A DNA stretch of 64,000 nt from a bacterium (GTDB taxonomy: Bacteria; Hinthialibacterota; Hinthialibacteria; H5-UNCL2). Position numbers and translations under genes: made by a program. This document shows, piece by piece, positions 60,451-63,958 of this stretch; positions within the stretch are counted from its first letter, which is position 1, and each line of letters begins with the position of its first letter. The notes under the pieces are model-generated. The model made no database searches, was not told the origin of the DNA, and worked only from the letters and a program-made list of their open reading frames with translations. The stretch is from positions 1 to 64,000 of the forward strand of contig JABTUV010000019.1 in assembly GCA_015075175.1 (NCBI GenBank), given 5' to 3'.

Positions 60451-60575
60451 CGCGTGTCCCGGCCCAAAAGTCACCTGACAGCATCCAGCCGGGATTGAGG
60501 ACGTGGAGGAGCAGCCTCGTCCAGGAGCTCCTGCAGGACGAGATGGTCGGGGAAACGGCGGAAGCCGCGGCGGAC
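60451..60575. repeat. Degenerate direct duplicate of the 3' end of the histidine-rich TPR gene
   Basis: About 125 bp matching 60885-61025: CGCGTGTCCC, then AGTCACCTGACAGCATCCA, ATTGAGGACGTGGAGGAGC, TCCAGGAGCTCCTGCAGGAC and GTCGGGGAAACG. Copy differences include several single-base indels. It corresponds to the last roughly 40 codons of the minus-strand gene plus its stop and flank. Confidence 0.88.
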
Positions 60576-60589
60576 CGCCGCCAAGCCGC

Positions 60590-60906: not shown

Positions 60907-62256
60907 TCACCTGACAGCATCCAAGCCGGGATTGGAGGACGTGGAGAGGAGCAGCTCGTCCAGGAGCTCCTGCAGGACGGGATCGTCGGGGAAACGAGCC
61001 AGCCCGAGGCGGGCCGTCGCCAGGGCCTCGTCGGGGCGACCTTCCCGGGCGTCCAGCGTGGTCAGCAGGCGCAGGCTGTCCAGCCAGGCGGTCTTCCAGC
61101 GTTCCGCCTCGAAGCGGTTGGCGTAACTCTGGGCGGCCAGCCCCGCCTCCGCGGAACGCGCCGCCTCCTCCAACGTCCGCCGCGCGGTCGCTGAGTCACG
61201 CCGGCCGAAAAGATGGGCGCGGGCCAACAGCATCAACAGTTCCGGGTTGCCGGGATTCTTCTCCAGCCCCTCCTCTATGAACGCAATGGCCTCATCCACC
61301 CGGCCGTAGTCGCGGCGCAGGGCGGCCGCGCCCAGCTTCCAGCCCTCGATGAAATGGGGATCGATGGCGACGCCGATCCGGTACCACGGCAGCGTCGAGA
61401 GCGCCCCCGTCGCGTCCGGGTGCGCGTGATCCGTACTGTAAGGCTGAATCTCCCGCTCCAGGTCGCCGAAAACCCCCCGCCAATCCCTCTCCTTGTGCAG
61501 GACCAGGGTATCGCCGTGCGTGCACTCGAGTTCCTCGTGCACGCCGTGTTCGGCGTGATGCTCGTGATCGTGCTCGGGCGCCTGCTCGGGTTGCACCGCC
61601 GAGACGATGGAGAAAGCGTTCTCCGGCACGTCGGACGCCGTCCGCGTCTCCATGGCCGCCAGCCGCGCCCGGTCCTCGTCGTGAAGCAGCGCAAACGGCA
61701 TCGCCTCCATCCCCCGATGGGTATGCGGCCAGAGGCCCAGCCGGTGGGTGTGCACGAGCGAACCGTGGGCGTGCTCTACGCTCAAGAGCCACTCGCCCTC
61801 GTCGTGCCAGTGGGGGATGTCCGGATCGGTGCGATGCGAGTGCGAGAGATGCTGCTCGGGATGCTCGTGAAAGTGCTCCGCCTCCAGGTTGTGCATGTGC
61901 TTGCGCGCGCCGTAGGCGTGAATATGCGTGTAGAGTCCCTGGTAGTGGGAATGGACCTTCCAGTGCTCGGCCTCGGGCCGGGCCATGTCGGCGGGGCGGA
62001 GGCTCTGGACCAGCTCGGCCTCCTCGGAGTGCGGGTGGGACGGCGCGGAATCCTCGCCGGACTGGTAGTAGACGCCGCGATGGCGGATTTTTTCGACTTG
62101 CAGGAGCGTGACGGCGGCCAGAGTGGCGCGCAGCTCGCCGCCCAAGACGTCCCACACGTCGAGGGGTTCGTCGCCCACCCGCGGCGGCTGGATGGCCTGG
62201 GAAAGCCCGGAAAGGCGGGGAGCGAGCGCCGCCAGGAGCACGAGCGAGGCGACCAT
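60907..62256 (-). CDS. Membrane-anchored histidine-rich TPR protein of an ABC cassette
   Basis: 449 residues. An N-terminal anchor (MVASLVLLAALAPRLSG) is followed by a segment (residues 74-254) with 32 histidines, arranged mostly as His-x-His pairs (HSH, HIH, HMH, HFHEH, HWH, HAH, HTH, HDHEHH). The C-terminal part contains TPR-type repeats (ALRRDYGRVDEAIAFIEEGL, EKNPGNPELLMLLARAHLFG, GRPDEALATARLGLARFPDD). The start at 62256 is the methionine before the anchor, 30 bases after the permease stop; the frame extends further but would overlap the permease. Being last in an ATPase-permease-TPR chain, it may act outside the membrane as a metal-binding partner of the transporter. The metal and substrate are not known, and no family was recognised for the His-rich part. 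Confidence 0.8.
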   Translation of the reverse strand: MVASLVLLAALAPRLSGLSQAIQPPRVGDEPLDVWDVLGGELRATLAAVTLLQVEKIRHRGVYYQSGEDSAPSHPHSEEAELVQSLRPADMARPEAEHWKVHSHYQGLYTHIHAYGARKHMHNLEAEHFHEHPEQHLSHSHRTDPDIPHWHDEGEWLLSVEHAHGSLVHTHRLGLWPHTHRGMEAMPFALLHDEDRARLAAMETRTASDVPENAFSIVSAVQPEQAPEHDHEHHAEHGVHEELECTHGDTLVLHKERDWRGVFGDLEREIQPYSTDHAHPDATGALSTLPWYRIGVAIDPHFIEGWKLGAAALRRDYGRVDEAIAFIEEGLEKNPGNPELLMLLARAHLFGRRDSATARRTLEEAARSAEAGLAAQSYANRFEAERWKTAWLDSLRLLTTLDAREGRPDEALATARLGLARFPDDPVLQELLDELLLSTSSNPGLDAVR

Positions 62257-62285
62257 GACGACCAGCGGCGCGCGAATTGCGGGGC

Positions 62286-63043
62286 CTACAGCATCCGCCG
62301 CTGTAACAGCAATCCCGCCGCCCCCAAGAGCTGCGCGATGTAGCCCAGCGCGTACAGCGTCAGATACACGAGGACCCAAGCCGCCACCGGCTCCCAGCCG
62401 TGCACGACCTTGCCGTTCAGATTGAAGAGGTCCAGATGCGGCAGGGTGAAATAGAGCGCCTCCGCCAGCCGCAGTTGCAGTCCCGACAGCTTGTCGTGCA
62501 CCAGCGAGAGCGCGGTCGAGAAAGTGCTGGCGCCGATGGCCAGAAGCAGCGACAGGCAGACGTTGGCGGCGTGGGTCAGGAGCAGCGAGAGAAAGAGCGT
62601 CATGGCCACGAGCAGCGCCAGGGAGAGAAAGCGCAGATAGAAGTTCTGCGCGACGATCCAACCCGGCATGGTCCCGGCCCGCCAGGCCACGATCAGAAAG
62701 ATGGCGTAGAGCACGACCAGCGAGAAGAGACACATCAGGTTGACGCCCACAAACTTGCCCAGGAGAAACTCCCAGCGCGAGAGCGGCTTGGCCAGCAGCG
62801 GATAGAGCGTGCGGTTGGAAATCTCCGCCGGCATCTGGCGCGCGGCGGCGGTGACGGCGATCAGGATGGCCGACCAGGTAATCACGAACAGGGCGATCTG
62901 CGACACGAAGGCGGAGAACCCGGCAATCCGAAGACGCGGACCATGGCCGCTCCGCCTATGATCCCCGCGGAGAGGATCGCCAGGACGTGAAGTCCCTGCG
63001 CCGGAAGGACCTGCAGTGCACCGCAGGCGATGACGCGCTTCAT
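62286..63043 (-). CDS. ABC-2 type permease (NosY-like), one frameshift near the N-terminus
   Basis: About 250 residues with six membrane helices. The clean frame from 62906 (SQIALFVITWSAILIAVTAA) contains the EISNRTLYPLLAKPLSRWEF LLGKF signature loop of this permease group, in which an amphipathic coupling helix meets the ATPase. The N-terminus MKRVIACGALQVLPAQGLHV LAILSAGIIGG starts at 63043 in another frame and joins near 62,925. Permeases of this kind work with a single ATPase; NosY exports material needed for the copper site of nitrous oxide reductase, but many relatives have other substrates. It lies between the ATPase and the histidine-rich TPR gene. Confidence 0.82.
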
Positions 63044-63069
63044 GGCAGGCGGGGCCTCGGCGCGAGCAG

Positions 63070-63171
63070 AATGGGACCTATGAGACGAATGAGACGAATG
63101 GGACGGAACCGCGACAGGCGACGTGGGAATCCCAGAGGTCGCAGGGGTCCCATGGGTCGTATGCGTCTCAT
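63070..63171. repeat. Family C inverted repeat between ABC ATPase and permease
   Basis: AATGGGACCTATGAGACGAA and TGAGACGAATGGGACG face GGGGTCCCATGGGTCGTATG and CGTCTCAT. The two halves are complementary enough to form a long hairpin within the presumed operon transcript. Confidence 0.75.
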
Positions 63172-63184
63172 CGCGCGTGCGGCG

Positions 63185-63958
63185 CTAGTCATGGCGCCCT
63201 CCGCCCTCCCCGCGGGAGGGGCCGTCGCCGGTCGTCACTTCGACGAAGAAATCCTCCAGGCTGCGCCCCTCGCGCTGGGCGCGCACCTTCTCCAGCGACT
63301 CCTCCAAAAGCACGCGCCCGTGGTTGATGATGATGATGCGGTCGCAGAGCAGCTCGACTTCGGAGAGTTCGTGCGAGGAGAAGAAGATGGTGCGGCCGGC
63401 GGCGCGCAGGCGCGAGAGAATCGCGCGCAGGTCGCGCCGCCCGACGGGGTCCAAGCCGCTGGAGAGTTCGTCGAAGATCATAAGATCGGGATCGCCCAAA
63501 ATCGACTGGGCGATGCCCACGCGCTGCTGCATGCCCTTGCTGTAGTGCTTGAGCCGCACGTCCTCCTTGCCGGAGAGTCCCACCAGGGCCAGCGTCTCGT
63601 CCACTTTCTTTTTCAGCTCGCGCTCGGGCAGGTCCATCAGGCGGCCGTACATCAGGAGCGTCTCGCGCGCGGAGAGAAAGGGATAGTAGAGCGCGACCTC
63701 GGGCAGGTAGCCAAGGCGGCGCTTGGACGGCCGGCTGCCCGCCGGATGGCCGAGCACCTCGATGCGGCCGCTTTTGGGGAAGATGAAGCCGAGAAGCGAC
63801 TTGATGGTGGTGCTCTTGCCCGCGCCGTTGGGGCCGAGAAAGCCGACGACTTCGCCCGGTTCCACACAGAGCGAGATGCCCGCGACCGCCCGATGCGGCG
63901 GGCGGAAGGGTCCCTTGGGATACTCGACGACCAGGTTTTCGACCCGGATGGCGCTCAT
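63185..63958 (-). CDS. ABC transporter ATP-binding protein
   Basis: 257 residues. Walker A GPNGAGKST (42-50), signature YSKGMQQR (139-146), Walker B DLMIFDE with catalytic Glu164 and the H-loop in FFSSHELSEVELLCD. The signature and the SSGLDPVGRRDLR D-loop text are typical of the NosF/CcmA group that pairs with ABC-2 permeases. It is the first gene of a minus-strand set with the permease (142 bases downstream) and the histidine-rich TPR protein. The start at 63958 (MSAIRVENLVVEYPKG) is standard. The last 42 bases of the window should hold its promoter, but too little is visible to call one. Confidence 0.95.
   Translation of the reverse strand: MSAIRVENLVVEYPKGPFRPPHRAVAGISLCVEPGEVVGFLGPNGAGKSTTIKSLLGFIFPKSGRIEVLGHPAGSRPSKRRLGYLPEVALYYPFLSARETLLMYGRLMDLPERELKKKVDETLALVGLSGKEDVRLKHYSKGMQQRVGIAQSILGDPDLMIFDELSSGLDPVGRRDLRAILSRLRAAGRTIFFSSHELSEVELLCDRIIIINHGRVLLEESLEKVRAQREGRSLEDFFVEVTTGDGPSRGEGGGRHD

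Follow-up and report, generated by a model that had tools for sequence, protein, structure and literature searches.

A conserved ABC-2 transporter cassette with a putative metal-binding TPR partner in Hinthialibacterota, Sumerlaeota and Armatimonadota

Three consecutive genes on a Hinthialibacterota contig, encoding an ABC ATPase, an ABC-2 permease and a histidine-rich, membrane-anchored TPR protein, represent a real and conserved ABC-2 plus TPR cassette that has no name. They lie in the window (the whole 64,000-nt stretch of DNA analysed here), which comes from a 4.98-Mb draft genome that is 84% complete. The explanation favoured here, with a probability of roughly 55%, is an uncharacterised ABC-2 system whose TPR partner binds metal, probably outside the cytoplasm, and carries a variable histidine loop as an accessory element. 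In such a system, the ATPase would drive one or two small permeases, on which the membrane-anchored TPR protein would dock as a dedicated partner. This partner would bind a transition metal, zinc being the likeliest, through a putative functional site made up of H59, the HxH of a spacer (residues 277/279) and the motif DFRGxxGDxER, while the variable loop beside the site may collect or buffer metal where it is rich in histidine.

All three genes are encoded on the minus strand in the order ATPase, permease (stop at 62286) and TPR gene (Table 1). The locus contains an ABC ATPase with an adjacent ABC-2 permease, as expected of an ABC-2 type transporter, and both PF00005 and PF12679 score above their cut-offs, the permease frame being broken. 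The best NCBIfam models for the ATPase are DrrA and GldA, both below cut-off. A preliminary description of this DNA had correctly placed the TPR gene last in the chain and had overlooked the break in the permease: two different frames are needed to match a homologue, one at window positions 63016-62918 for its residues 13-45 and one at 62927-62289 for the rest. This frameshift, located within 62900-63050, could equally reflect a sequence error in the draft genome or decay. Some hundreds of bases beyond the 3' end of the TPR gene, positions 60471-60583 hold a degenerate partial copy (86%) of that end, possibly an assembly artefact or a small duplication. The region between the ATPase and permease genes (63060-63173; query 2148-2267) is similar to short segments found at several further sites of the genome and contains three imperfect direct repeats of 14 nt, of the type GAGACGAATGGGAC, perhaps marking a dispersed repeat family.

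Table 1. Features of the cassette, in window coordinates
Feature	Position	Strand	Support
ABC ATPase, DrrA/GldA/NosF type, 257 aa	63185..63958	(-)	PF00005, E 4e-27
ABC-2 permease (ABC2_membrane_2), frame broken near N-terminus	62286..63043	(-)	PF12679, 29.5 bits (cut-off 27.2)
Membrane-anchored His-rich TPR protein, 449 aa	60907..62256	(-)	ATG at 62256
Short hydrophobic helix predicted at the N-terminus (residues 2-16), presumably an anchor or signal	62209..62253	(-)	Structure model, sequence
H59, conserved His at end of first soluble helix	62080..62082	(-)	His in 33/33 and 87/92
Variable loop rich in His (residues 74-254; 32 His), disorder predicted	61495..62037	(-)	
Motif DWRGVFGDLER (residues 258-268)	61453..61485	(-)	D, R, G, G, E and R invariant in family alignment A3
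Spacer H277-x-H279, conserved HxH position	61420..61428	(-)	Family: His 85/92, HxH 63/92
C-terminal TPR solenoid (residues 283-440)	60937..61410	(-)	pLDDT mostly > 90; best Foldseek matches are TPR proteins

The TPR protein of the window contains 37 histidines, 32 of which fall within residues 74-254 and form 13 overlapping HxH motifs in 11 clusters, with one further HxH at 277/279. A recount reproduced exactly the 32 histidines, the 11 clusters and the 277/279 pair given in the preliminary description, and its layout of an anchor followed by C-terminal TPRs agrees with the predicted hydrophobic helix and with a TPR_14 match (E 5e-10). At a background of 3% histidine, the probability of at least 32 histidines in 181 residues is approximately 1e-15, which excludes a chance origin of the run. 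Tandem expansion at the DNA level was also considered and rejected, Tandem Repeats Finder having returned no array that would account for the run and just one weak 18-bp row of 2.3 copies. In the AlphaFold model, the TPR part is confident and the histidine loop is unstructured or disordered; for a compact homologue, the prediction has the variable loop connecting two short strands directly after the conserved histidine.

Foldseek searches retrieved generic TPR proteins and nothing more specific, and the N-terminal region of the window protein had no match in Pfam, NCBIfam or PDB. Across 33 family members, Pfam and NCBIfam scans returned essentially TPR models alone, and a PDB profile search of the family produced matches, all to generic TPR proteins, from profile position 138 onward only; the N-terminal region of the family therefore has no name in these three resources. 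The protein probably resides outside the cytoplasm, judging from the hydrophobic helix at its N-terminus and from the fact that many homologues have a basic N-terminus. No relevant publication emerged from a literature search on a TPR/ABC/His-rich system.

A scan of genome contigs with a single protein recovered no relative, whereas an alignment-based scan did recover relatives. Another search with the single protein yielded relatives that matched mainly along the C-terminal half, and their full open reading frames share an N-terminal region with H59 (mostly YxHxGV), the motif DFRGxxGDxER, a spacer bearing His or HxH, and TPR repeats. The window locus belongs to this family, its permease gene directly preceding the gene for a TPR protein that carries the H59 region and the motif. 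Family members are present in 5 of 14 Hinthialibacterota genomes, 35 of 40 Sumerlaeota genomes and 60 of 251 sampled Armatimonadota (short forms included), as well as in 4 of 5 genomes of one small phylum, 2 of 3 of another and a single Hydrogenedentota MAG. A broad draw of 290 genomes yielded just 11 genomes with a match at E 1e-30, and no relative was found in viral contigs. In the Hydrogenedentota MAG (L079, 5962-8559), the family protein runs in-frame into a lengthy region resembling ankyrin repeats on inspection by eye. A contig titled Methanoregulaceae archaeon (L085) carries a cassette very similar to that of Fimbriimonadaceae locus L086 and is probably misbinned. Several short Armatimonadota relatives (L212, L213, L215 and L216) have a much shorter spacer devoid of histidine, such as DWTKDTDIL.

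In all 34 named loci from the alignment scan, a permease gene lies immediately upstream of the TPR gene, and a same-strand ATPase gene was found no more than 2.6 kb upstream in 73 of 83 testable cassettes, that is, those with enough flank among 98 loci. Several loci with no ATPase nearby retain the adjacent permease, L207 being the one apparent exception among those inspected. Five Armatimonadota loci (L074, L076, L080, L084 and L087) carry a co-directional gene for a protein of ~770 aa on the 3' side of the cassette.

The H59 position is occupied by histidine in 87 of 92 family members, and the spacer contains histidine in 85 and HxH in 63; two members labelled Actinomycetota and some short Armatimonadota forms have no histidine in the spacer. 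The long run, in contrast, is peculiar to the window genome, no relative having a run of such length. Relatives from the same phylum (L062, L063 and L064) have loops of 23-33 residues with 0 or 1 histidine; Candidatus Hinthialibacteria OLB16 (L063) possesses the whole cassette with zero histidines in the loop, and no strong histidine cluster was seen in its TPR protein or directly downstream. The preliminary description held that homologues keeping the cassette without the histidines would refute its reading; relatives such as OLB16 are homologues of this kind, so that the reading is formally refuted as regards the run, which is not a defining feature of the system. It is likelier that the metal site consists of H59 and the spacer HxH rather than of the long run, the latter being accessory.

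It could also be supposed that the long run is a functionless oddity of one lineage in a decaying cassette, an improbable explanation that would accommodate the broken permease frame, the degenerate copy of the TPR gene tail and the restriction of such a run to this genome. However, the TPR frame is open across 449 codons with its conserved motifs intact, and the indels in the permease are confined to a short stretch where sequence error in the draft would serve equally well.

Dense histidine clusters are a recurrent property of the family. At least 8 histidines per 30 residues were found in 22 of 92 family proteins versus 1 of 239 length-matched neighbouring ORFs (p 1e-12), and at least 6 per 30 in 28 of 92 versus 9 of 239 (p 1e-10), the controls being mechanical ORFs rather than curated genes. 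The TPR protein of 64 of the 92 members lacks a strong cluster. The His-rich state changed at least 18 times on a quick family tree built from core columns, many inner branches of which are weakly supported, indicating that it has been gained or lost repeatedly. Histidine-rich sequences occur elsewhere in some cassettes, including C-terminal tails (HDHDH) in L085, L086 and L093, and the His-rich tail of a small membrane protein encoded downstream in L062, L064 and L069, whose own TPR loops are poor in histidine.

These observations bear on a different interpretation, in which the cassette serves general ABC-2 export or envelope assembly, the TPR protein recruits proteins, the conserved histidines have a structural role and the His-rich loops, as acidic and disordered linkers subject to drift, have no role with metals. 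This interpretation is possible, if doubtful. The ATPase is nearest to the DrrA/GldA group, TPR domains are typically protein-binding, the loop has no fixed length and is disordered, glutamate (12%) and aspartate (8%) are abundant in the variable loops as well, and most genes neighbouring the cassettes are unrelated. However, the histidine fraction of the variable loops exceeds that of the TPR core approximately fourfold (0.092 versus 0.021), the recurrence of dense clusters in separate lineages is poorly explained by drift alone, and His-rich tails are present on other proteins of the same cassettes.

Genomic context offers additional indications for a metal-binding partner. ArsP_2 and ZIP genes lie 3' of the cassette in L024 and MerC in L197 and L199, which belong to the same genus, while L209 has an ArsR regulator next to the cassette and L193 a CGGC protein. 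Cassettes with a ZIP, heavy-metal exporter, MerC or ArsR gene beside them are few and partly from one genus, and these neighbours are suggestive of a metal context. The preliminary description had recommended looking upstream for Zur, Fur or CueR-type sites; within 250 bp upstream, neither a classical Zur/Fur match nor an excess of palindromes over shuffled sequences was detected, and the classical consensus may not suit these phyla. Proteins of the ZnuA type (PF01297) are present elsewhere in 14 of 14 Hinthialibacterota and 37 of 40 Sumerlaeota genomes searched, those of the window genome (C34 and C47) lying away from the cassette; because both occur in the same genomes, the cassette does not replace ZnuA, and its role as a ZnuABC substitute was ruled out. 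Overall, the interpretation in the preliminary description is supported in part: at the level of the family, a metal-binding role for the TPR partner gains from the conserved histidine positions, the repeated appearance of His-rich segments and the metal genes next to some cassettes, while the long run is not what defines the system.

More tentatively, and at a little under even odds, the cassette may represent an undescribed class of transition-metal ABC system that pairs an ABC-2 transporter with a TPR solenoid as its metal-binding partner and that is almost universal among Sumerlaeota and common in a part of the Armatimonadota. If so, metal ABC transport would acquire a new partner fold, neither Venus fly-trap nor ferredoxin-like, and a function would be assigned to a cassette carried by almost all of the Sumerlaeota genomes searched and by roughly one in four of the sampled Armatimonadota, two phyla with few cultured members. 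H59 and the spacer HxH provide precise, testable positions that are independent of the eye-catching run.

Among known systems, NosDFY, which acts with NosL in the maturation of nitrous oxide reductase, combines an ATPase of the NosF type and an ABC-2 permease of the NosY type with a repeat protein outside the cytoplasm. The window cassette has the same component classes, including a PF12679 permease and a repeat-rich partner, and a comparable role in serving one extracytoplasmic metalloenzyme, rather than general metal supply, can be envisaged. Such a role is decidedly unlikely, as there is no enzyme gene that stays with the cassette from locus to locus and no NosD, NosL or NosZ was recognised by eye among the adjoining ORFs; in L009, these encode a sensor kinase and other proteins, with no NosD among them. 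NosD is a beta-helix protein, whereas the partner described here is an alpha-helical TPR protein with histidines. DrrAB and GldA-GldF resemble the cassette in their type of ATPase and permease, all matches being below curated cut-offs, and to our knowledge neither system has a TPR partner gene.

The closest parallels to the proposed metal-binding partner are ZrgA and PA4063. ZrgA of Vibrio cholerae is a periplasmic zinc protein linked to ABC genes, with a His-rich loop that is variable and non-essential (PMC9820375), and PA4063 of Pseudomonas aeruginosa, from the PA4063-PA4066 cluster, is likewise an ABC-linked periplasmic zinc protein equipped with a His-rich loop (PMC8561739). Both ZrgABCDE and PA4063-PA4066 share with the window cassette an ABC ATPase, a permease and a non-classical partner with a His-rich loop (PMC9820375, PMC8561739). 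They differ in that ZrgB is MacB-like and ZrgA and PA4063 adopt a ferredoxin-like fold, as opposed to an ABC-2 permease and a TPR partner; the ZrgA domain PF10986 is absent from the window protein, for which Pfam scans yield TPR families only. ZnuABC also employs an extracytoplasmic partner, ZnuA, in which a loop rich in histidine lies next to the metal site (PMC8561739), but the fold of ZnuA (PF01297) is a Venus fly-trap and the window protein lacks PF01297. By analogy with ZrgA and ZnuA, the 32-histidine loop of the window may be an extreme version of such an accessory element, and the TPR protein would be a metal-binding partner of an ABC-2 cassette, with zinc as the likeliest metal.
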